From assembly GCF_016861975.1 (NCBI RefSeq), contig NZ_BOMB01000015.1, positions 124,001 through 188,000 on the forward strand: a stretch of DNA of 64,000 bases, given 5' to 3'. This DNA is from Actinocatenispora rupis (lineage in GTDB: Bacteria; Actinomycetota; Actinomycetes; Mycobacteriales; Micromonosporaceae). Position numbers and translations under genes: made by a program. Of this stretch, positions 3-50,168 are shown one piece after another (position 1 is the stretch's first letter; each line of letters opens with the position of its first letter). The notes beneath the pieces were generated by a model. That model did no database searches. It was given only the letters and a program-made list of their open reading frames with translations, and was not told the DNA's origin.

Positions 3-512
3 GTGAATGGCGTGGCCGAACAGCGACCGACCGTCGGCGTGATCATGGGCAGCGACTCGGACTGGCCGACGATGCGGGCCGCGGCCGACGCGCTGGCCGA
101 GTTCGACGTGGCGTACGAGGTCAGGGTCGTGTCGGCGCACCGTACGCCCGGCCTGATGCTCGACTACGCGCGCGAGGCCGCCGACCGCGGCATTCGGGTG
201 ATCATCGCCGGTGCCGGCGGCGCGGCACACCTGCCGGGCATGGTCGCGGCGGCGACGCCACTGCCGGTCGTCGGCGTACCGGTGCCGCTCAAGCACCTGG
301 ACGGCATGGACTCGCTGCTGTCGATCGTGCAGATGCCGGCGGGCGTACCGGTGGCGACGGTGTCGATCGGTGGCGCCCGCAACGCCGGCCTGCTCGCGGT
401 ACGAATCCTGTCGACCGCCGACGACGCGCTCCGCTCCCGGATGGCCGACTTCCAGCGCGGCCTCGCGGACATGGTCGCCGACAAGGACGCCGCCCTCCGC
501 GCCTCCCTCTGA
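3..512 (+). CDS. purE: N5-carboxyaminoimidazole ribonucleotide mutase PurE
   Basis: Cytoplasmic purine biosynthesis enzyme that converts N5-CAIR to CAIR. The 169-residue protein has the class I PurE signatures: GSDSDW at residues 16-21, SAHRTP at 44-49, and the glycine-rich [10 protein letters not shown] stretch at about 70-79 that binds the substrate phosphate. Length is typical of the family. The GTG start overlaps a TGA at 4-6, which fits the end of an upstream co-transcribed purK lying outside the window (inference). No terminator hairpin is obvious directly after the stop; a repeat tract follows instead. Confidence 0.96.
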
Positions 513-11989: not shown

Positions 11990-12511
11990 TCACGTCCACT
12001 GTGGACGGAGGCGGGGGTCGTGGGAGGGGTCGGGGTACTGGGGCGGCGGCCCGTGTACGGCGGCCTCGGGGCGGAGTTCGTAGTGCCAGGGCTCGTTGCG
12101 GTAGATCTGGCAGAGGCCGTACCGGGCGCCGTGGGTGGACAGCCAGGCGGTGGCGTCGGAGTACCCGATGTCGACGGCGTGTCCGGCCACGTGGATCGAG
12201 GTGTCCGGGGTGGCGACCCAGCGGGCGGCTTCCGTGGCCGAGCCGTACTTGGCGATGGCGCGGCGGAGCAGCTCGTTCTGGTACGCGGGGGTGCGCCAGC
12301 CGCTGTTGACGTGGAGTTCGACGCCGTCGCGGGCGGCGTCGGTGGCGGCGGCACGCAGCGCGCGGCGGAGTGCGGGGTCGAGGTTGGCGACGCCGGGATA
12401 GGTGTCGTCGAACACGGTCGCGCCGGCGGGGAGGGCACCGTCGGCCTCGGTGACCGCGGGGCGGTCGGTGGCGGGTGCGGGCTTTGGTGGTGCTGATGCC
12501 GTTTGTCGCAT
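11990..12511 (-). CDS. vanY: VanY-type D-Ala-D-Ala carboxypeptidase
   Basis: A 173-residue M15B metallopeptidase predicted to remove the terminal D-Ala from peptidoglycan pentapeptides. Zinc ligands fit the family: His107 and Asp114 in SIHVAGHAVD, and His143 with catalytic Glu140 in EPWHYE. Unlike classical VanY it has no signal peptide or membrane segment from this start, and the start is supported by a promoter block shared with vanH that reaches to the ATG. It could therefore act in the cytoplasm, like VanXY, or be exported by another route. The palindrome GTCCACTGTGGAC (11994-12006) forms its last codons. Confidence 0.85.
   Translation of the reverse strand: MRQTASAPPKPAPATDRPAVTEADGALPAGATVFDDTYPGVANLDPALRRALRAAATDAARDGVELHVNSGWRTPAYQNELLRRAIAKYGSATEAARWVATPDTSIHVAGHAVDIGYSDATAWLSTHGARYGLCQIYRNEPWHYELRPEAAVHGPPPQYPDPSHDPRLRPQWT
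11994..12006. repeat. GTCCACTGTGGAC palindrome, copy 4
   Basis: Exact copy 24 nt after the TetR stop; on the minus strand it encodes part of the last residues of VanY. Confidence 0.8.
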
Positions 12512-12544
12512 GCCGCCAGTGCAGCGGGTGTGCTGTTGCGGGGC

Positions 12545-12591
12545 CGTATCGGCTTTTCGCTATGCCGACGATATGTGCGGCCTCGTAGCCT
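12545..12591. promoter_or_regulatory. VanR box between vanY and vanR, with vanR -10
   Basis: The core 12545-12576 matches the block upstream of vanH (18199-18230) at 27 of 32 positions: CGTATC, then 13 nt, then GCCGACGATATGT. Distance to the start codon is 55 nt for vanY and 56 nt for vanH. For vanR in the other direction, TAGCCT (12586-12591) is a plausible -10 that ends 7 nt before the ATG, suggesting a leaderless vanR message. One site could thus drive both vanY and vanRS. Confidence 0.75.
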
Positions 12592-12598
12592 GGTGTGC

Positions 12599-13282
12599 AT
12601 GCGTGTGTTGGTGGTCGAGGACGAGCCGTACATGGCGGAGGCCATCCGGGACGGGTTGCGGCTGGAGGCGATCGCGGCCGACATCGCCGGCGACGGCGAC
12701 ACGGCCCTGGAACTGTTGAGCGTCAACGCGTACGACATCGCGGTGCTGGACCGGGACATTCCGGGGCCGTCGGGCGACGAGGTCGCGGCGAGCATCGTGG
12801 CGTCGGGCAGCGGTACGCCGATCCTGATGCTGACGGCCGCGGATCGGCTCGACGACAAGACATCCGGGTTCGGGCTGGGTGCCGACGACTACCTGACGAA
12901 ACCGTTCGAGTTGCAGGAGCTGGTGTTGCGGCTGCGGGCGCTGGACCGCCGGCGCGCCCACCACCGCCCTCCGGTACGCGAGATCGCGGGGTTGCGGGTG
13001 GATCCGTTCCGCCGCGAGGTGCACCGGGACGGCCGGTACGTGGGGCTGACCCGGAAGCAGTTCGCCGTACTGGAGGTGCTGGTCGCCGCCGAGGGTGGGG
13101 TGGTGAGCGCCGAGGAGCTCCTGGAACGCGCGTGGGACGTGAACGCCGACCCGTTCACGAACGCGGTACGGATCACGGTTTCCGCGCTGCGTAAGCGACT
13201 CGGCGAGCCGTGGCTGATCGCGACGGTGCCGGGCGTCGGGTACCGGATCGAGGCGCCGGCGGCCGGACGGGGCCGTGAGTAG
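12599..13282 (+). CDS. vanR: VanR-type response regulator
   Basis: A 227-residue OmpR-family regulator. Receiver domain: acidic pocket EDE at 7-9, phospho-acceptor Asp51 in LDRDIPG, conserved Thr/Lys later in DDYLTKPF. The C-terminal winged helix (LTRKQFAVLEVLV ... VRITVSALRKRLG ... GVGYRIE) is complete. Adjacent vanS and the van structural genes identify it. It should activate vanHAX-murG2 and vanY through the shared box. The vanS GTG overlaps its end by 8 nt. Confidence 0.93.
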   Translation: MRVLVVEDEPYMAEAIRDGLRLEAIAADIAGDGDTALELLSVNAYDIAVLDRDIPGPSGDEVAASIVASGSGTPILMLTAADRLDDKTSGFGLGADDYLTKPFELQELVLRLRALDRRRAHHRPPVREIAGLRVDPFRREVHRDGRYVGLTRKQFAVLEVLVAAEGGVVSAEELLERAWDVNADPFTNAVRITVSALRKRLGEPWLIATVPGVGYRIEAPAAGRGRE

Positions 13283-14360
13283 GGCGCTCGGGCTGAGCGT
13301 GCGGGCCAAGCTGACGCTCAGCTACGCCGGGTTCCTGATGCTGGCCGGGGTGCTGCTCCTGGGGGTGGTGTGGGCCTTCCTCCTGCGGTACGTCCCGAAC
13401 CACCCGATGATCGGCCCCGGTCCGATGATCCCGAACCGCGGCGACCTCGTTCGGGCGTTCGCGCCGAAGGTGTCGCTGATGCTGCTGTTCCTGCTGGCGT
13501 TCGGGCTGCTGGGCGGGTGGGTACTCGCCGGGCGGATGCTCGCGCCGCTGGCCCGCATCACCACCGCGACGCGGAAGGCGGCGGTCGGGTCGCTGTCGCA
13601 CCGGATCGACCTGGAGGGCCGCAACGACGAGTTCCGCGAACTGGCCGACAGCTTCGACGCGATGCTCGCCCGGTTGGAGGCGCATGTCGCGGAGCAGCAA
13701 CGGTTCGCGGCCAACGCCTCGCACGAGTTGCGTACGCCGCTGGCGATCACGCAGACGCTGCTGGACGTGGCGCGCAACGATCCGGACCACGACACGACCG
13801 AGCTCGTCGACCGCCTGCACTACGTCAACACCCGGGCGATCGACCTGACCGAGGCGCTGCTGTTGCTCAGCCGCGCGGACCGGCGGTCGTTCACCCGGGA
13901 GCCCGTCGACCTGTCCCTGCTCGCGGAGGAGGCCACGGAGACGCTGCTGCCGCTCGCGGAGCGCCGCGGCGTCACGATCGAGACGGCCGGCGACGCCAGC
14001 CCCACGATCGGCTCGTACGCGCTGCTGTTGCAGATGACCACGAACCTGGTACACAACGCGATCGTGCACAACCTGCCGGACGGTGGCGCCGTGTGGGTCG
14101 GCACCGCCGCCGACGCGTCCGGCGTACTGCTCATTGTCGAGAACACCGGCGGGAGGCTGGCGCCCGAGCTGGTGTCCACGTTGGCGGAACCGTTCCAGCG
14201 CGGTACGCAGCGCACGCACACCGGGCACGCCGGGGTCGGCCTCGGGCTGGCCATCGTCCGGAGCATCGCCGAGGCGCACGACGGTACGCTCGCGCTCGCC
14301 GCCCGGCCGGAGGGCGGCCTCCGCGTCACGGTGCGCCTGCCCGCCGTGCCACGCACCTGA
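13275..14360 (+). CDS. vanS: VanS-type sensor histidine kinase
   Basis: A 361-residue kinase with two membrane segments (about 14-37 and 66-88) around a short 28-residue extracellular loop rich in Pro and Met (NHPMIGPGPMIPN), then HAMP, DHp with phospho-acceptor His150 in ASHELRTPL, and a HATPase with the N box NLVHNAIVHN and GVGLGLAIV. It senses glycopeptide exposure and phosphorylates VanR; the loop and first helix are where inducer specificity would reside. The 3' end meets murG2 with a 9-nt convergent gap. Confidence 0.93.
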   Translation: MSRALGLSVRAKLTLSYAGFLMLAGVLLLGVVWAFLLRYVPNHPMIGPGPMIPNRGDLVRAFAPKVSLMLLFLLAFGLLGGWVLAGRMLAPLARITTATRKAAVGSLSHRIDLEGRNDEFRELADSFDAMLARLEAHVAEQQRFAANASHELRTPLAITQTLLDVARNDPDHDTTELVDRLHYVNTRAIDLTEALLLLSRADRRSFTREPVDLSLLAEEATETLLPLAERRGVTIETAGDASPTIGSYALLLQMTTNLVHNAIVHNLPDGGAVWVGTAADASGVLLIVENTGGRLAPELVSTLAEPFQRGTQRTHTGHAGVGLGLAIVRSIAEAHDGTLALAARPEGGLRVTVRLPAVPRT

Positions 14361-14369
14361 CTCCGGTAC

Positions 14370-15476
14370 TCACCGGCGGCGTTCGGCGATCGCGGTGAGG
14401 ACGTGGCGGGCCAGGACGACGTCCGCGTCGGGCGCCCCCGCGGCGACGGCGCGGCCGGACATGGCCGCGATCCGGGCCGGATCGGTGAGTACGGGGAGCA
14501 GGGTGGTCTCGATCCAGGCGGGGTCGAGGTCGGCGTTGTCGACGAGCAGCGCCCCGCCGGCGGCGACGATCGGTTCGGCGTTGTGCCGCTGTTCGCCACC
14601 GCGCAGCGGCAGCGGCACGTACGCGGCGGGCAGGCCGACGGCGGACAGTTCGGCGCAGGTCATCGCCCCGGAACGGCAGATCGCGACGTCGGCCGCGGCG
14701 TACGCGTGGGCCATCTCCTCGACGTACGGGACGACCACGTAGCCGTCGGCGTACGGTGGCTCGACGGTGTGCTGCGGCCCGGTGATGTGCAGGACCTGGA
14801 CGCCGGCGGCGCGGAGTGCCGGTGCGGCGCCGGACACGGCGACGTTGATGGCGCGGGCACCCTGCGAGCCGCCGGTGGCGAGCAGTACGGGGCCGTCCGG
14901 GCGCAGGCCGAACCGGCGCCGGGCCGCGTCGCGCTGCGCGGGCCGGTCGAGCCCGGTGATCGCCGGCCGCAGCGGGATCCCGATGGCGGTGGCGTGCGCG
15001 AGCCGTACGTCGGCGGTGGCGGTGAACACCCGCGTGGTGAGCCGGGCGGCGAGCCGGTTCGCGACACCGGGCTGGGCGTTCGCCTCGTGGATGACGATGG
15101 GCAGGCCGCGCCGGTGCGCGGCGAGGTACGCGGGTGCCGCCACGTACCCGCCGAAGCCGACGACGACCTCGGCGCGTACCCGGTCGAGTACGGCGCCGGC
15201 GGCCCGTACCGAGTCGCGGAGCTTGCCCGGGGTACGCAGCAGGGCGGGGTTGAGGGTGCGCGGCAGCGGCACCGGCGGGATGAGTTCGAGCGGGTACCCG
15301 CGGGCCGGGATGAGCGTGGTGTCGAGCCCGCGGACGGTGCCGAGCGCGGTGATCCGGGCCGTGGGTTCCAAGCGGCACAAGGCATCCGCGAAGTTCATGG
15401 TGGGTTCGATGTGCCCGGCCGAGTGGCCGCCGGCGACGACCACGCGCGGCTCCGGCACGGTTCTCTGCGACGTCAT
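14370..15476 (-). CDS. MurG-like UDP-GlcNAc:lipid I GlcNAc transferase (van-associated)
   Basis: A 368-residue GT28 glycosyltransferase. It keeps the MurG motifs: first glycine-rich loop AGGHSAGHIEP (16-26), HEANAQPGVAN (130-140; the usual HEQN with Gln changed to Ala), TGGSQGAR (201-208) and CRSGAMTCAEL for UDP-GlcNAc binding. It is the last gene of the vanH-vanA-vanX operon, 12 nt after vanX, and is probably a second MurG beside the division-cluster copy. Inference: it converts lipid I ending in D-Ala-D-Lac to lipid II. A GT28 tailoring enzyme is a less likely alternative. Confidence 0.85.
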   Translation of the reverse strand: MTSQRTVPEPRVVVAGGHSAGHIEPTMNFADALCRLEPTARITALGTVRGLDTTLIPARGYPLELIPPVPLPRTLNPALLRTPGKLRDSVRAAGAVLDRVRAEVVVGFGGYVAAPAYLAAHRRGLPIVIHEANAQPGVANRLAARLTTRVFTATADVRLAHATAIGIPLRPAITGLDRPAQRDAARRRFGLRPDGPVLLATGGSQGARAINVAVSGAAPALRAAGVQVLHITGPQHTVEPPYADGYVVVPYVEEMAHAYAAADVAICRSGAMTCAELSAVGLPAAYVPLPLRGGEQRHNAEPIVAAGGALLVDNADLDPAWIETTLLPVLTDPARIAAMSGRAVAAGAPDADVVLARHVLTAIAERRR

Positions 15477-15488
15477 TCCTGTCCTCGG

Positions 15489-16097
15489 CTAGGCCACGGG
15501 AAAGTCGAAGTACGTGTCCGGGTACGGTTCGCCGGTGAGCGTGTAGTGCCACCATTCCCGTTCGTACGCGGCGAATCCGCAGGCTTCCATGATGGAACGA
15601 AGCTGCCGGCGGTGCCGCGCCGCGTCCGGCGCGATGCCCGGTGCGCCGTGGTGGGAGACCGGGTCCATCAGGTCGTGACCGCCGCCCATCGCGACGGGCT
15701 CGCCGGTGTCCAGGCGGCAGAGCGTCAGATCGACGGTACTGCCGCGGCTGTGCCCGGATCTCGTTGCCACGTAACCCTGTCCGACCATCTCGGCGCGCGC
15801 GATGTTCGGGTGGTGCCGTCGCTTCGCCCGGCCGTCCTCGGGTCGCCGTGCCCAGCGCAGGAAGCAGTCCACCGCGCGCTGCGGCCGGTACCCGTCCCAC
15901 AGCAGCAGGCCGAACCCGCCGGCTGCCGCCTTGTCCCGGGCCCGCTCCAGTGCCGCGCACAACGCCGTCGTACCGACGATCCGGTTCGCCTGGTACCCGT
16001 CGACGGGCGCGCCGGTGAAGTTGTCCGCCGTGGCGTACTTGGCGTCCCACCGGATCCCGGGCACCGCCTCGTCGACGTACGCGAAGCCGCCGTTCAC
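15489..16097 (-). CDS. vanX: VanX D-Ala-D-Ala dipeptidase
   Basis: Cytoplasmic zinc dipeptidase that hydrolyses D-Ala-D-Ala so that only D-Ala-D-Lac enters the wall precursor. The 202-residue length and numbering coincide with classical VanX: His116 and Asp123 in SGHSRGSTVDL, Glu181 and His184 in EWWHY, and the conserved IRWDAKYAT start and YFDFPV end. The GTG start at 16097 overlaps the vanA stop (GTGA), giving translational coupling. Confidence 0.97.
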   Translation of the reverse strand: MNGGFAYVDEAVPGIRWDAKYATADNFTGAPVDGYQANRIVGTTALCAALERARDKAAAGGFGLLLWDGYRPQRAVDCFLRWARRPEDGRAKRRHHPNIARAEMVGQGYVATRSGHSRGSTVDLTLCRLDTGEPVAMGGGHDLMDPVSHHGAPGIAPDAARHRRQLRSIMEACGFAAYEREWWHYTLTGEPYPDTYFDFPVA

Positions 16098-17131
16098 TGG
16101 ACCTTGCCCGTCAGCGCCAGCGACACGACCCGGTCGAGCACGTCGCCGAGCGAGTACCCGGCGGCGGCCATCATGCGCGGGTACCGGCTGTACGAGGTGA
16201 GGCCCGGCAAGGTGTTGACCTCGTTGAGGATCACGGTCCCCTCGTCGGTCAGGAACAGGTCGACCCGGGACAGTCCGCGGCACCCGAGCGCCCGGTACAC
16301 GGCCTTCGCGGTGTCCTGCACCAGCGCGCGCGACTCCGCCGGGATGTCGGCGGGTACGACGGGCGTCGAGTTCTCCGAACCGGTCTCGGGCGCGCTCTCC
16401 TGGTGGATCCGGAAGAACCCGTGCGTGAGCGCGATCCGGTCGACCTCGCCGGCGATCAGCTCCGCCTCGTTGCCGAGGATCGCGCAGCCGACCTCGCTGC
16501 CGGCCACCGCCTCCTCGACCAACACCTTCGAGTCGTACCGTCGCGCGGTCTCCACCGCGTCCCGGAGTTCGGTGGGCCGGGTCACCTTGCTGACGCCGAA
16601 GGACGAGCCGGATCGGGCCGGCTTCACGAAAACGGGGTAGCTGAGCCGATCCGGGTCGACGGTGTCGGTCGCGGTCACGACCCGGAAGTTCGGCGTGGCG
16701 ATCCCCGCGGCCCGCACCACCGTGTACGTCAGCGCCTTGTCCATGGCCAGCGCAGAACTCTGCACGTCGCACCCCACGTACGGGATGCCGGAGAGTTCGA
16801 GGAGGCCCTGCGTCGCGCCGTCCTCGCCGAACCTGCCGTGCAGCACGGGAAGCACGAGATCCAGGCCGATCGCCTCGTACCGGCCGCGGTCGAGCACGAG
16901 CAGCCCGCGCACGCTGCGGTCCGGCGACAGCAGCACCGAACGCGAGCCGGTGTCCCAGTCGCCGTCGGGGCCGTCGCAGAGCTTCCACGCGCCGGAGCGC
17001 GTGATCCCGATCCAGTACGGCTCGTAGCGGTCGGGATCGAGGCTGCGCGCGACCTCCCGCGCGGACTTGACCGAGACCGGGTGCTCCTCGGACGTGCCAC
17101 CGAACAGGATTCCGACCTTCAGCTTATCCAT
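16094..17131 (-). CDS. vanA: VanA-type D-alanine--D-lactate ligase
   Basis: ATP-grasp ligase joining D-Ala and D-lactate. The 345-residue protein aligns from end to end with VanA by motif: LFGGTSEEHPVSVKSA at the N-terminus, KPARSGSSFGV for ATP binding, and the omega-loop segment FFRIHQE, where His243 corresponds to the VanA His244 linked to lactate preference. NEVNTLPG provides the magnesium ligands. It overlaps vanH upstream by 8 nt and vanX downstream by 4 nt. Confidence 0.97.
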   Translation of the reverse strand: MDKLKVGILFGGTSEEHPVSVKSAREVARSLDPDRYEPYWIGITRSGAWKLCDGPDGDWDTGSRSVLLSPDRSVRGLLVLDRGRYEAIGLDLVLPVLHGRFGEDGATQGLLELSGIPYVGCDVQSSALAMDKALTYTVVRAAGIATPNFRVVTATDTVDPDRLSYPVFVKPARSGSSFGVSKVTRPTELRDAVETARRYDSKVLVEEAVAGSEVGCAILGNEAELIAGEVDRIALTHGFFRIHQESAPETGSENSTPVVPADIPAESRALVQDTAKAVYRALGCRGLSRVDLFLTDEGTVILNEVNTLPGLTSYSRYPRMMAAAGYSLGDVLDRVVSLALTGKVQ

Positions 17132-18164
17132 GCTGTTCCCCGCTCTCGAAGTGCAGACAGTTGGTGAGACTGTTGGCGACGGTGTCGCTCAGGGCGTGGT
17201 CCGTGTAGTAGGCGGTGTGCGGGCTGATGAGCACGTTCGGCAGCCTGTGCAGGCGCAGCAACGGTTCGCTGTCGATCGGCGTGCTCCGGCGGTCGGCGTA
17301 GAAGATGCCCTCCTCGCCCTCGATGACATCCAGCGCCGCGCCGCCCAGGCGCCCGCTCTCCAGCGCGTCGACGAGCGCGGCGGTGTCGAGCAACGACCCG
17401 CGGCCGGTGTTGACGACGAGCGCGCCGTCCCGCATCGCGGCGATCCGCCGCCGGTCGAGCAGGTGGTACGTGTCCGCGGTGAGCGGCGTGTGCAGCGTGA
17501 CGATGTCGCTGCGGCGTACCAGATCGTCGAGCGGCACGTACTCGGCGGCCGCGCGCGGGTGGTTGTCGGCGGCCAGCACCCGGCAGCCGAAACCGCGGAG
17601 CCGGTCGACGACCGCCGTACCGATGCGCCCGGTGCCGACGACGCCGACGGTCAGGTCGCGCAGCTCCCGCCCGCGTACGTCACCGAGCCGGTAGTCGTGC
17701 ACGTCCGCCCGGCGGATGGTGGCCTTCGCGTGGCGTACCGCCATCAGCATGAGCATCAGGGTGTAGTCGGCGACGCTGTCCGGCGAGTAGGCGACGTTGC
17801 CGACGGCCAGCCCCACGCTCTCCGCGTACGACATGTCGATGTGGTCGTACCCGATGCTCCGGGTGGACACGTACTCGACGCCGGCGCGGCTCAGCGCGAG
17901 CAGCGCGGAGTTCGGGACGGCGGTCTTGTGGCCGACGCTGACGCACCGGTTGCCCAGCGCCAGGTCCACGTTGTCCCGGGACACCGCCGCCGCGGTGATG
18001 GTCAGCCGTACCCCGAAGCGCGGTGCCATCTCGCGGAACAGCGCGGCCTCGTCCGGGCCGCAGCCGTAGATCGTGATGCCCGTCGCCGGGATGGTCGCGG
18101 CGGACGACGACGCCAGCGATCGGGTGCGGCGGACCGCGGTCGGTGCTGGTTCGCTGAAGGTCAT
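17124..18164 (-). CDS. vanH: VanH D-lactate dehydrogenase
   Basis: NAD(P)H-dependent reductase of pyruvate to D-lactate, the substrate of VanA. The 346-residue protein carries the D-isomer 2-hydroxyacid dehydrogenase motifs: STRSIGYDHID near 120, VGVVGTGRIG near 178, NTGRG with the catalytic Arg near 263, the EGEEG segment and SPHTAYYT with the catalytic His. An N-terminal extension of about 28 residues precedes the homologous start. ATG 18164 is kept because the promoter block shared with vanY reaches it. First gene of the operon. Confidence 0.96.
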   Translation of the reverse strand: MTFSEPAPTAVRRTRSLASSSAATIPATGITIYGCGPDEAALFREMAPRFGVRLTITAAAVSRDNVDLALGNRCVSVGHKTAVPNSALLALSRAGVEYVSTRSIGYDHIDMSYAESVGLAVGNVAYSPDSVADYTLMLMLMAVRHAKATIRRADVHDYRLGDVRGRELRDLTVGVVGTGRIGTAVVDRLRGFGCRVLAADNHPRAAAEYVPLDDLVRRSDIVTLHTPLTADTYHLLDRRRIAAMRDGALVVNTGRGSLLDTAALVDALESGRLGGAALDVIEGEEGIFYADRRSTPIDSEPLLRLHRLPNVLISPHTAYYTDHALSDTVANSLTNCLHFESGEQHG

Positions 18165-18198
18165 GCCGCCCAGTCAACGGGGCGGCGTGTTGCCGGCG

Positions 18199-18230
18199 CG
18201 TATCCGGATTTCGATACGCCGACGATATGT
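18199..18230. promoter_or_regulatory. VanR box upstream of vanH
   Basis: CGTATC (18199-18204) and GCCGACGATATGT (18218-18230) with the same 19-nt offset as at 12545. In this copy CGTATC and GATACG also form an inverted repeat. The homology with the vanY promoter continues towards the start (CATGCCGCC on the plus strand in both). Confidence 0.75.
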
Positions 18231-47096: not shown

Positions 47097-50000
47097 ATGA
47101 CCGGACAGGCACGGGGCCCGCGACGGGTCCGGACCGACCGGGCGCCGTGGCCCGCGCGGCTCGGCGCGGTACTGCACGGGCGCCGCGGCGGGGCGGTGGC
47201 GTGGCTGCGGGTGGCCGCCGCCGCGCTGCTGGCCGCGGGTCTCGTGCTGGTGCCGGCCGCGTCCGCGCCGGCCGCACCGCAGACCAGGGTGTCGCTCACC
47301 TTCGACAACGGCGCCGCCAGCCAGTACGACCTCGGGTACCAGCAGGCGCTGAAGCCGCACCACGCGACCGCCACGTACTTCGTGAACTCGGGGACGATCG
47401 GCGTCGGCACCAACATCATGACCTGGAACGAGCTGAGCACGCTCGCCGCCGACGGCAACGACATCGGCGGCAAGACGGTCGACGGCTCCGACCTGACCAC
47501 CGATCCGGATCCCAGCTCGCAGGTGTGCAACGACCGTACGGCGCTGGTGCAGCACGGTCTCGACCCCGTCGCGTTCGCGTACCCGGGCGGTGCGTTCGAC
47601 CCGACGGTCGAGAACGTCGTCAAGGCCTGCGGGTACGGCAGCGCCCGGTCGGCCGGCTCGCTGTCGCCGAACGGCCCCACGTACGCGGAGGCGCTGCCGC
47701 CGACCGACTGGTACGCCACGCGCGCGTGGGCGCCGACCGGTCAGGTGACGCTCGCGGACATGAAGTCGCTGGTGTCGGGCGCGGCGCAGGACGGCGGCTG
47801 GACGCAGATCGTGATGGATCGGGTCTGTTCGCAGACCGCCGATCCGGGCGACTACAGCGCCTGCACGTCGACCTCCGGCTGGGTCGACCTGGGCGACCTG
47901 AACTCGTTCCTCGACTGGATGGGCAACGCCGGGCAGTCCGGTGGCGCGCCCGCCGGTGCGGCGCTGAGTACGGTGCGGGACGCGGCGATCTCCGCCGACA
48001 CGACCGCCCCGTCGACCGCCGTCGCGTGCAACGGCCAGCCCTGCACGGGATCCACGTACGACCAGACGGTGTTCGTGACGCTCGCGCCGACCGACACCGG
48101 GTCCGGCGTGGCGAGCACGCACTACACCACCGACGGCACCGATCCGACGCTGTCCAGCCCGACGTACGGCGGGCGGATCGCGGTCACGCACCCGACGACC
48201 GTCAACTTCCGGTCGTGGGACAACGCCGGCAACGCGGAGGCGGTGCAGAGCCGGACGATCCAGGCCAGCCCGGCGCCGGACTCCTCGCCGCCGACGACCA
48301 CGATCTCCTGCAACGGCAACGCGTGTGACACGCCGACCACCGGCAAGGTCTCGGTCGCGCTGAACGCCAGCGACGCGTCCGGCTGGGGCGTGGACAGGAC
48401 CTACTACACCACCGACGGCACGACACCCACCACGTCGAGCCAGGTGTACTCCGGCCCGTTCACGCTGACGACCGGTACGACGACCGTGAAGTACTTCTCG
48501 ACGGATCTGGCGGGGAACGCGGAAGCGCCGCAGTCGCAACAGATCACGGTCGATCCGTACCACACGGCGGTGGCGCTCACCTTCGACGACCAGTACGCGG
48601 GCGTGTACCGGTACCTGCGGCCGATGCTGCGGTCGCATGGCATGAACGCCACCATCTACACGATCACGTCCGACTCGACGGACCAGAACGCCTGCTGCAT
48701 GACGTACGGGCAGCTGCGCACGATGCAGAGCGAGGGCGACGACATCGGCGGGCACGGCCGGGAGCACCTGGACCTGACCGACCCGGGTACGACGACGGCG
48801 CAGAAGACCGCGGACGTCTGCGAGTCCCGCCAGGACCTGCTGGACAACGGGATCTACGACCCGGTCTCGTTCGCCTACCCGTTCGGCTCGTACAACGCGG
48901 CGGCCGAACAGATCGTCAAGTCCTGCGGGTACGCGACGGCCCGGCAGGGCGGCGGTCTCGCGCAGACGACGACCACGCCGGGGCCGAAGTACGCGGACAC
49001 CCAGCCGCCGCAGGATCCGCTGGCACTACCCGCGATCGACGTGAACGCGCCGAACGCGAAGGTGCTCGGCGACCTGGAGAACTACGTCACGGCGGCCTCG
49101 TCGCACGGCGGCGGCCTGCTGGTACTGACGTTCCACGAGGTGTGCGACAAGTCGCAGTCGGACTACGGCTCCTGCATGTCGTCGTGGAGCGCGGTGGACA
49201 CCACGGTCATGTCGCAGTTCCTGACGTGGCTGGGCGGTGCCGGGCAGTCCGGCGGCGCCCCGGCCGGCGTCCAGGTCCAGACCGTACGGGCGGCGACGGC
49301 CGCGGCGCAGGACACCACGCCGCCGTCGGTCACCGCGCAGTGCAACGGCAGCGCGTGCCAGGACACCCAGTACGCGGCGCCGGTGAAGGTCGCGCTGGAC
49401 GCGACGGACAGCGGCGGCGTCGGCGTGCGGCAGGTCCACTACACGACCGACGGCTCCACGCCGACGACCGCGAGCCCGGTGTACGGCACGCCGTTGACGG
49501 TGTCGAAGACCACGACGGTGAAGTACTTCGCGGTGGACAACGACGGCAACAGCGGGCCGGTGCAGAGCCAGACGGTCACGATCGACAGCACCGCGCCGAC
49601 CACGTCGGTCAGCTGCAACGGCGCGGCCTGCGCCGCCTGGTACCAGGCGACGCCGGTGTCGGTCGGGTTGACCGCGACCGACAACGCCGGCGGCGTCGGC
49701 GGCACCAAGACGTACTACACGACCAACGGGACGACGCCGACGAAGTCGAGCCCGACGTACACCGGGCCGTTCCCGGTGTCGGTCACGACGACGGTGAAGT
49801 GCTTCTCCGTCGACGGCGCCGGCAACACGGAGGCGGTGAAGACGCAGGCGGTCCGCGTGGACGCGGCGGCGCCGACCGTCTCGATCACGTTGCCGCGCAC
49901 CGGAACCATCGTCCTGTCCGGGACGACCGTGCCGATCACGGCGAGCGCCGCGGACCGCGGTACCGGTACCGGCGCGGCGTCCGGGCTGGCGAACGTGAAG

Positions 50001-50168
50001 TTCTACCTGGACGGCACGACGCTCGTCGGCACCGACACCACGGCTCCGTACACGGCGTCGTGGAGCACCAGCGGCGTCGCGAAGGGCGTGCACACGCTGA
50101 CCGCGGTCGCCACCGACGTTGCGGGCAACGCCACCCGGTCGGCGGGCGTCCAGGTGACCATTCGGTAA
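47097..50168 (+). CDS. Large secreted protein with two NodB deacetylase domains and chitobiase-like repeats
   Basis: A 1023-residue exported protein: signal/anchor at about 36-60, first NodB domain 63-290, two ~85-residue CHB_HEX_C-like repeats (YTTDGTxPTxSSxxYxGP), second NodB domain 490-735, two more such repeats, and a C-terminal Ig-like repeat (TAVATDVAGN). The second NodB domain keeps TFDD (495-498), His553 and His557 in GGHGREH, and the late His in TFHEVC. In the first, these positions read TFDN, GGKTVDG and VMDRVC, so it should be inactive. Predicted to de-N-acetylate or bind the exopolysaccharide outside the cell. Confidence 0.87.
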   Translation: MTGQARGPRRVRTDRAPWPARLGAVLHGRRGGAVAWLRVAAAALLAAGLVLVPAASAPAAPQTRVSLTFDNGAASQYDLGYQQALKPHHATATYFVNSGTIGVGTNIMTWNELSTLAADGNDIGGKTVDGSDLTTDPDPSSQVCNDRTALVQHGLDPVAFAYPGGAFDPTVENVVKACGYGSARSAGSLSPNGPTYAEALPPTDWYATRAWAPTGQVTLADMKSLVSGAAQDGGWTQIVMDRVCSQTADPGDYSACTSTSGWVDLGDLNSFLDWMGNAGQSGGAPAGAALSTVRDAAISADTTAPSTAVACNGQPCTGSTYDQTVFVTLAPTDTGSGVASTHYTTDGTDPTLSSPTYGGRIAVTHPTTVNFRSWDNAGNAEAVQSRTIQASPAPDSSPPTTTISCNGNACDTPTTGKVSVALNASDASGWGVDRTYYTTDGTTPTTSSQVYSGPFTLTTGTTTVKYFSTDLAGNAEAPQSQQITVDPYHTAVALTFDDQYAGVYRYLRPMLRSHGMNATIYTITSDSTDQNACCMTYGQLRTMQSEGDDIGGHGREHLDLTDPGTTTAQKTADVCESRQDLLDNGIYDPVSFAYPFGSYNAAAEQIVKSCGYATARQGGGLAQTTTTPGPKYADTQPPQDPLALPAIDVNAPNAKVLGDLENYVTAASSHGGGLLVLTFHEVCDKSQSDYGSCMSSWSAVDTTVMSQFLTWLGGAGQSGGAPAGVQVQTVRAATAAAQDTTPPSVTAQCNGSACQDTQYAAPVKVALDATDSGGVGVRQVHYTTDGSTPTTASPVYGTPLTVSKTTTVKYFAVDNDGNSGPVQSQTVTIDSTAPTTSVSCNGAACAAWYQATPVSVGLTATDNAGGVGGTKTYYTTNGTTPTKSSPTYTGPFPVSVTTTVKCFSVDGAGNTEAVKTQAVRVDAAAPTVSITLPRTGTIVLSGTTVPITASAADRGTGTGAASGLANVKFYLDGTTLVGTDTTAPYTASWSTSGVAKGVHTLTAVATDVAGNATRSAGVQVTIR

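Follow-up and report, generated by a model that had tools for sequence, protein, structure and literature searches.

The window analyzed here is a 64,000-nucleotide stretch of an Actinocatenispora rupis contig (NZ_BOMB01000015.1, positions 124,001 to 188,000); it carries a glycopeptide resistance locus, and our subject is the DNA site through which the response regulator VanR most likely controls this locus. The genes are arranged in the order vanY (minus strand), vanRS (plus strand) and vanH-vanA-vanX-murG2 (minus strand), and all frames are open; the genes, strands and places given in a preliminary description of this contiguous locus were confirmed (Table 1). In the profile search, VanA scored 583.9 bits with NF000206 and VanX scored 371.3 bits with NF033115, both over the respective cut-offs of 550 and 320, and VanH scored 524.6 bits with the generic vanH profile NF000492, slightly under the cut-off of 540. 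VanH produces D-lactate, VanA joins D-Ala-D-Lac, VanX removes D-Ala-D-Ala, and VanY trims the last residue. With the ligase, VanX and VanH in one run and VanRS beside them, this is a D-Ala-D-Lac glycopeptide resistance locus. Assignment to the VanO type of Rhodococcus equi was considered and rejected, as VanA, VanR and VanS scored below the cut-offs of the VanO (577.5 of 750 bits), VanR-O (448.6 of 505) and VanS-O (477.5 of 720) profiles.

Table 1. Genes and predicted regulatory elements of the van locus (window positions).
Feature	Position	Strand	Remarks
vanY	11990..12511	-	M15 D,D-carboxypeptidase, 173 aa, without N-terminal membrane segment; Pfam PF02557, hydropathy
Putative -10 of vanY, TGCACT	12518..12523	-	box+35..40; consensus elsewhere TTGACT
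Proximal element 2 of vanY promoter, CGCAAC	12535..12540	-	consensus GGCAAC
Proximal element 1 of vanY promoter, GATACG	12545..12550	-	CGTATC of the preliminary description on the plus strand; consensus CATACG
Predicted VanR tandem operator common to vanR and vanY	12558..12575	+	CGCTATG-CCGA-CGATATG, 26.0 bits
Putative -10 of vanR, TAGCCT	12586..12591	+	10 nt past operator, 7 nt ahead of ATG at 12599; TAGCAT-like in relatives
vanR	12599..13282	+	OmpR/PhoB-family response regulator, 227 aa; vanR-O profile 448.6 bits; S. coelicolor VanR 7lz9
vanS	13275..14360	+	histidine kinase
murG2	14370..15476	-	second MurG; GGHSAGH replaces GGGTGGH
vanX	15489..16097	-	D-Ala-D-Ala dipeptidase; NF033115 over cut-off; 1r44
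vanA	16094..17131	-	D-Ala-D-Lac ligase; NF000206 over cut-off; 3se7, 1e4e
vanH	17124..18164	-	D-lactate dehydrogenase; N terminus MTFSEPAPTA from shared leader codons
Putative -10 of vanH, TTGACT	18172..18177	-	comparison of box-driven promoters; S. coelicolor vanH listed as leaderless (PMC3160421 Table 1)
Proximal element 2 of vanH promoter, GGCAAC	18189..18194	-	promoter comparison
Proximal element 1 of vanH promoter, GATACG	18199..18204	-	consensus CATACG
Predicted VanR tandem operator of vanH	18212..18229	+	CGATACG-CCGA-CGATATG, 31.2 bits; opposite to vanH

VanA, VanX and VanR could be aligned over their full lengths with solved relatives (3se7 and 1e4e, 1r44 and 7lz9, respectively), in agreement with the earlier statement that key residues are intact; MurG2 has an altered glycine loop, and the motifs of VanS, VanH and VanY were judged by eye only. 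VanR of 10 aligned relatives was 88-93% identical to VanR of the window, and its DNA-binding domain, including the recognition-helix region, hardly varied among the 11 loci aligned or in VanR of S. coelicolor. The gene content of the locus is ordinary and already in print; vanHAX followed by murG was described earlier in a few species (Andreo-Vidal 2021, PMC8698665), and the gene order including murG2 was also found in three genus-mates (L021-L023). The vanR gene of one of these is split over two frames in the assembly (L023:6774-7450).

The promoters of vanY and vanH share a 32-bp core, as had been noted before: positions 12545-12576 and 18199-18230 are identical at 27 of 32 bases, whereas 200 dinucleotide shuffles of both upstream regions reached at most 22, and the homology extends to the ATG. 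The distances of 55 and 56 nt first given from core to start codon match neither edge (the near edge lies 33 bases from the vanY start and 34 from the vanH start); the one-base difference between them was correct. Within this core, VanR most likely reads an 18-bp tandem repeat, CGRTAYG-N4-CGATATG, which is narrower than the recognition sequence first proposed. Its two direct half-sites, 11-bp period and position before regulated genes are those of an OmpR/PhoB-type tandem operator. A single copy between vanY and vanR is able to serve both genes, as had been suggested, and a second lies before vanH. In the complete genome assembly (7.83 Mb, 81 contigs), the pattern CATATCGNNNNCRTATCG had one exact match (vanH) and one match at one mismatch (vanY/vanR), with none other at up to one mismatch; at two mismatches there were ten further matches, and the backwards control gave 8 matches in all.

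The sequence, spacing and conservation of this operator, and its co-occurrence with VanR, were established by comparison across genomes. A search for VanR at E <=1e-85 gave matches in 16 of 396 genomes from the phylum and in 84 of 397 from the order, and named species were searched as well; loci were fetched from 14 of the 16 and 73 of the 84, respectively, and at least 80 loci were kept from the named species, of which 15 distinct ones with VanR of at least 72% were used. Together with loci from one further search, the set comprised 108 loci, and removal of 7 without a VanR alignment from residue 1 and of one duplicate left 100 distinct vanR upstream regions. The core CGATATG-N4-CGATATG was present at 10 or more of its 14 positions in 83 of these regions, compared with 0.8% of mononucleotide shuffles, and ended 22-23 nt ahead of the start in 68 of the 83. 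The 4-bp spacer was mostly CCGR, and some positions outside the operator were near background.

A scoring matrix built from 82 vanR promoters only was then scanned over 3.97 million positions in 107 loci and gave 152 matches of at least 16 bits. The 168 matches of at least 13 bits consisted of 84 vanR promoters (most of them in the training set), 42 sites at vanH, 8 at vanY alone and 34 elsewhere. A match stood before vanH, in the orientation opposite to the gene, in 37 of 40 loci, and 5 further matches at vanH were a second, divergent copy. Of 295 Streptomyces-group genomes, 30 carried VanH, and 20 of these 30, none used in training, were fetched; at a threshold of 12 bits (lowest vanH, 14.2), the box was found in the expected orientation at vanH (20/20), vanR (12 of the 12 found), murF2 (10/17) and vanJ (4/5). 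Nine control loci with VanR-like regulators (46-57%) yielded one match, of 16.2 bits, and 55 loci with other regulators yielded none above 15.5 bits. The exact box word occurred in 32 of the 397 order genomes, comprising 28 of the 84 with VanR and 4 of the 313 without (p = 4e-17, without correction for kinship), and the backwards control pattern occurred in 2 by our reading. By hand count, 26 of the 36 exact boxes in these genomes were within 7 kb of a listed vanR.

Two promoter types are arranged around the operator. Downstream of it, in the vanR direction, there follow 10 bp, TAGCCT (TAGCAT-like elsewhere), 7 bp and the ATG. In the opposite direction, before vanH and vanY, the order is operator, AAAA, CATACG, GGCAAC, TTGACT and ATG. 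Among 227 boxes of at least 13 bits in 127 loci, a frame of 80 or more residues started 42-51 bp away in 164, at 46 or 47 bp in 155 of them; for boxes of at least 16 bits the figure was 149 of 154. Before vanH, TTGACT kept a constant place with respect to the operator (T at box+35, +36 and +40, 2.5-2.7 bits), and the ATG shifted between 46 and 47. In 53 vanR promoters with a partner gene at the set distance, CATACG-like (4 or 5 of 5 bases), CAAC-like and TTGACT-like elements were present in 48, 53 and 52, respectively, compared with 7, 8 and 4 of 30 vanR promoters without a partner. Because the proximal elements and TTGACT accompany the divergent partner gene, the operator is separable from the vanY/vanH promoter. 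CATACG and GGCAAC are 4 bases apart and end 11 bp ahead of TTGACT (10 bp if taken as 7-mers), which recalls the vanR promoter; our guess is that CATACG-N4-GGCAAC could be a weak second VanR site. TTGACT was also considered as a -35 element and rejected, as inspection by eye found no -10 at the proper distance inside the genes.

Transcription starts of the S. coelicolor van genes were reportedly mapped by Hong et al. in 2004. The vanH, vanK and vanR genes of S. coelicolor are documented as leaderless (PMC3160421 Table 1, after Hong et al. 2004), and all three start sequences printed there can be located in L274, an S. coelicolor-like locus, each with a box at the expected distance. In our set, Shine-Dalgarno-like 5-mers preceded vanH in 0 of 57 cases, vanY in 0 of 64 and vanR in 1 of 100, compared with vanS in 35 of 78; at vanH/vanY-type promoters the start codon lies 46-47 bp beyond the repeat with no Shine-Dalgarno site. 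A TANNNT-like hexamer, TAGCCT, is located at -13 to -8 of vanR; TTGACT (vanH) and TGCACT (vanY) are rightly placed but are not of the form TANNNT. Together with the S. coelicolor precedent, the rigid spacing from the repeat to TTGACT and the scarcity of Shine-Dalgarno words suggest that the vanR, vanY and vanH promoters are leaderless.

Taken together, the comparisons point to the following mechanism, which we consider very probable as a whole. Phosphorylated VanR would bind the 18-bp operator through the two 7-bp direct half-sites, 11 bp apart. At vanR the operator would occupy -41 to -24, ending 10 bp before the -10 element, the mRNA would start at the ATG, and VanR would activate its own gene much like PhoB-type regulators. 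Read the other way, the same operator would be an upstream site for vanY (-64 to -47), and the second copy would serve vanH in the same manner (-65 to -48). There the operator would be followed by AAAA, by the proximal elements CATACG-N4-GGCAAC, perhaps a weak second VanR site, and by TTGACT as the -10, with the ATG as the first base of a leaderless mRNA. VanR activated by VanS would then turn on vanY, vanRS and vanHAX-murG2 together. The van genes of S. coelicolor are induced by vancomycin (PMC7947799; PMC9779433).

Several observations weigh against this mechanism or against parts of it. GGCAAC resembles a half-site weakly, the period of the proximal pair is 10 (hexamers) or 11 (7-mers) depending on the register, and TTGACT carries T at a position that is A in actinobacterial -10 boxes. 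The core of 10/14 is missing in 17 of the 100 vanR upstream regions, and three loci (L028, L038 and L188) have vanH without a box. The exact box is absent from 56 of the 84 VanR genomes, 4 genomes with the box have no listed VanR, and 10 of the 36 exact boxes lie over 7 kb away from any listed vanR. Genomes that are related, moreover, do not count as independent samples. In the A. rupis genome, the looser pattern CGRTAYGNNNNCGATATG at up to one mismatch matches five extra places, which score 5.9-15.8 bits against 26.0 and 31.2 for the two operators. Shine-Dalgarno words are also scarce at the starts of vanA (8/32) and vanX (4/24), so that the contrast with vanS alone overstates the case for leaderless starts. 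Finally, the reverse primer of a published vanH reporter stops just past CATACGGGACGGC, ahead of the TTGAAT element, and this truncated fusion was still induced about twenty-fold (vanJ forty-fold; far less responsive on plates) (PMC9779433). This result is at odds with a promoter that requires that -10, unless the vector supplied one.

The response of that reporter would be accounted for if CATACG were the -10 of vanH and vanY, with transcription starting at GGCAAC and a leader of about 26 nt containing TTGACT, and the operator would then be at the usual activator distance. We regard this arrangement as unlikely, since vanH and vanK of S. coelicolor are documented as leaderless (PMC3160421) and the interval between operator and TTGACT is constant, as promoter DNA would require, with only the ATG moving by one base.

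The preliminary description had proposed a single 32-bp VanR recognition sequence, CGTATC-N13-GCCGACGATATGT. This pattern is present twice in the window and is what the two copies have in common; as the sequence read by VanR, it is nevertheless quite improbable. Its right half corresponds to one half-site, the other half-site lies inside "N13" (one base off the consensus in the vanY/vanR copy), and CGTATC is a separate proximal element whose presence goes with the divergent gene (found in 48 of 53 vanR promoters that have a partner, and in 7 of 30 for vanR alone). The exact pattern matched 1 of 100 vanR and 1 of 57 vanH upstream regions, both from this window, while the tandem pattern was exact in 28 and 14, respectively; with 14 fixed or two-fold bases against 19, the tandem pattern has some advantage in this comparison.

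That the repeat is read by a regulator other than VanR seems very improbable to us. Phosphate does affect the S. coelicolor van promoters (PMC6001138), but the repeat follows VanR across genomes and is present in L274 at vanR, vanJ, vanK and vanH, genes reported to be under VanRS control (PMC6001138, PMC7947799). A recent duplication without regulatory meaning would fit the continuous homology from the box through the ATG, but can practically be dismissed, as the same positions are kept in loci of many genera, and also before unrelated genes, with some neighbouring positions near background.

An inverted repeat, TTACC-N4-GGTAA, was observed abutting the operator upstream of vanH at one fixed distance in 19 of 57 vanH promoters (at least 8 of 10 bases). 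Equal scores were reached at murF2 (4/5), VanK-like genes (1/11), vanY (1/64), the VanZ class (0/12) and shuffles (33/5700). Examples are L023, L030, L190 and L273, and vanH of the window is not among the 28 best rows. This repeat is possibly the site of a second regulator.

Box-driven genes extend beyond vanHAX. The 164 frames comprised vanY (64; 63 by best match), vanH (57), VanZ-like (12; 11 after recheck), FemAB/VanK-like (11, in 9 loci), MurF2 (5), VanJ-like (5), a probably secreted protein (3), an S11 peptidase (1) and an alanine racemase (1). The remaining five, namely a 105-aa frame in L035 and four frames opposite murG2 whose boxes score 13-14 bits, were judged to be chance. Within the VanZ class, a 682-aa frame in L224 was rejected as being in the wrong frame; what follows that box is a beta-lactamase-like gene. 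A Pfam search was made with one member each of the VanK-like, VanZ, beta-lactamase-like, VanJ-like, S11 peptidase, alanine racemase, MurF2 and small secreted-type proteins, and no Pfam family was found for the one member of the last that was searched. This small protein, which carries a repeated EC-[MV]-R-x-[NH]-GV motif, is encoded divergently from vanR in three genomes belonging to one family (L182:9725, L186:9952, L215:9524); a short frame at L042:9457 is perhaps related. Beta-lactamase-like genes adjoin the box in L194, L221, L224, L225, L229 and L234, with a partial match in L230, and VanZ in L232 and L233 and the hydrolase in L234 start on the box strand in the manner of vanR. In L039, L043, L044, L163, L165, L168, L220 and L221, the fetched stretch (about 9 kb on either side) gave no match to vanHAX or vanY. 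Exact boxes far from a listed vanR in genomes with VanR (G453:C10, G634:C32, G665:C27, G673:C15 and G737:C2 at 25961) are possible distant regulon members or chance matches.

The first codons of these genes are also shared. Starts of the form M-x-x-S-E were found in VanH (22/57), VanK-like (7/11), MurF2 (4/5) and VanY (9/64); VanJ, VanZ and the remaining frames had no such start. Codons 5-8 of these 42 genes end in A in 102 of 168 cases, compared with 31 of 378 for codons 12-20, a difference that is in part built in, as the choice of S-E fixes codon 5 as Glu. From 63 boxes without a long frame, 23 were picked by hand for leader inspection, and 21 of them had a start codon at 46/47. In twelve of these 21, the start codon begins a 9-39-codon leader, and the leader's stop overlaps, by ATGA or GTGA, the start of a frame of at least 200 aa, which by its first residues is MurF2 in 9 cases, VanK-like in 2 and beta-lactamase-like in 1. 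The vanH of the window (MTFSEPAPTA) is the in-frame fused form of this leader, and promoter, start and leader seem to have moved as one unit. At L208:6162, a short frame like the VanH start and then a vanA frame come after a VanR-type promoter, with the intact vanH elsewhere in the locus. We lean towards the view that the VanR promoter is a portable leaderless module that came to stand ahead of unrelated cell-wall genes across Actinobacteria, in some cases joined to them in frame and in others forming a minicistron with a stop-start overlap (ATGA/GTGA). The module would consist of the operator, the proximal elements, the -10, the start codon and some eight leader codons (M[TS]YSEPAR) that are rich in A at the third position. 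It would give VanR a cell-wall stress regulon (vanZ, vanJ, vanK, murF2, beta-lactamase-like hydrolases and alanine racemase), even where vanHAX or vanY is not nearby.

The roles of two further products of the locus, MurG2 and VanY, are inferred. MurG2 scored 231.7 bits with TIGR01133, under the curated cut-off of 250.25, as did the housekeeping MurG of the same genome (245.5), to which it is 52% identical. MurG2 forms a subfamily marked by the GGHSAGH loop, which was present in 10 of 10 MurG2 proteins found in the 108 loci (window 14370-15476, L021, L022, L023, L175, L184, L190, L195, L197 and L200), compared with GGGTGGH in the housekeeping copy; it is our guess that MurG2 could be adapted to an altered lipid I. 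By the hydropathy threshold, an N-terminal membrane segment is lacking in the VanY of this genus, as it is in 19 of 64 box-driven VanY proteins, and the enzyme may act inside the cell. Elsewhere in the window, positions 47097-50168 encode a large protein with polysaccharide deacetylase, chitobiase C-terminal-like repeats and an Ig domain.

The shared operator of the preliminary description is real and its recognition sequence was misdrawn; what deserves following is the operator in its corrected form, along with the proposed portable leaderless module. Our literature search, outside which most subscription papers lay, found no statement of what actinobacterial VanR binds (Hong et al. 2004 may contain one), and phrases such as "VanR operator" led, by title, to gene switches and yeast or Corynebacterium engineering. 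The structure of S. coelicolor VanR has been solved, and its system is a model for inducible glycopeptide resistance. With a defined 18-bp operator, the regulon of any genome could be read from its sequence, and genes hitherto viewed as separate (vanZ, vanJ, murF2 and beta-lactamase-like) are predicted to be under VanR control. It is also a clean example of how a leaderless promoter can move along with its first codons. In this soil bacterium, the vancomycin-type resistance genes are probably switched on via a short repeated DNA motif, which in relatives is found at further cell-wall defence genes as well.

Tandem operators of the PhoB/PhoP type (PHO boxes) are known from OmpR-family regulators. 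The predicted VanR operator is similar to these in its two 7-bp direct repeats, 11-bp period and position about 10 bp before the -10 at vanR, but differs in the half-site CGATATG and in being reversed and further upstream at vanH and vanY. Actinobacterial vanHAX-vanRS(-vanY) loci, including those bearing murG and the vanO operon of Rhodococcus equi, have the same gene set, with murG right after vanHAX in a few species and vanRS and vanY as neighbours (PMC8698665, in whose main text the words promoter and operator are absent); the locus described here falls below the NCBIfam VanO-type cut-offs. The S. coelicolor van cluster (vanRS, vanJ, vanK, vanHAX) has a very similar VanR (7lz9) and leaderless vanR, vanK and vanH (PMC3160421), but contains vanJ and vanK in place of vanY and murG2. 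The S. coelicolor-like L274 has the operator and shares the three printed start regions and the vanH primer site with S. coelicolor; the vanJ primer was not found in it. The enterococcal vanA and vanB systems are similar in that VanR activates both vanRS and vanHAX (PMC8541618).

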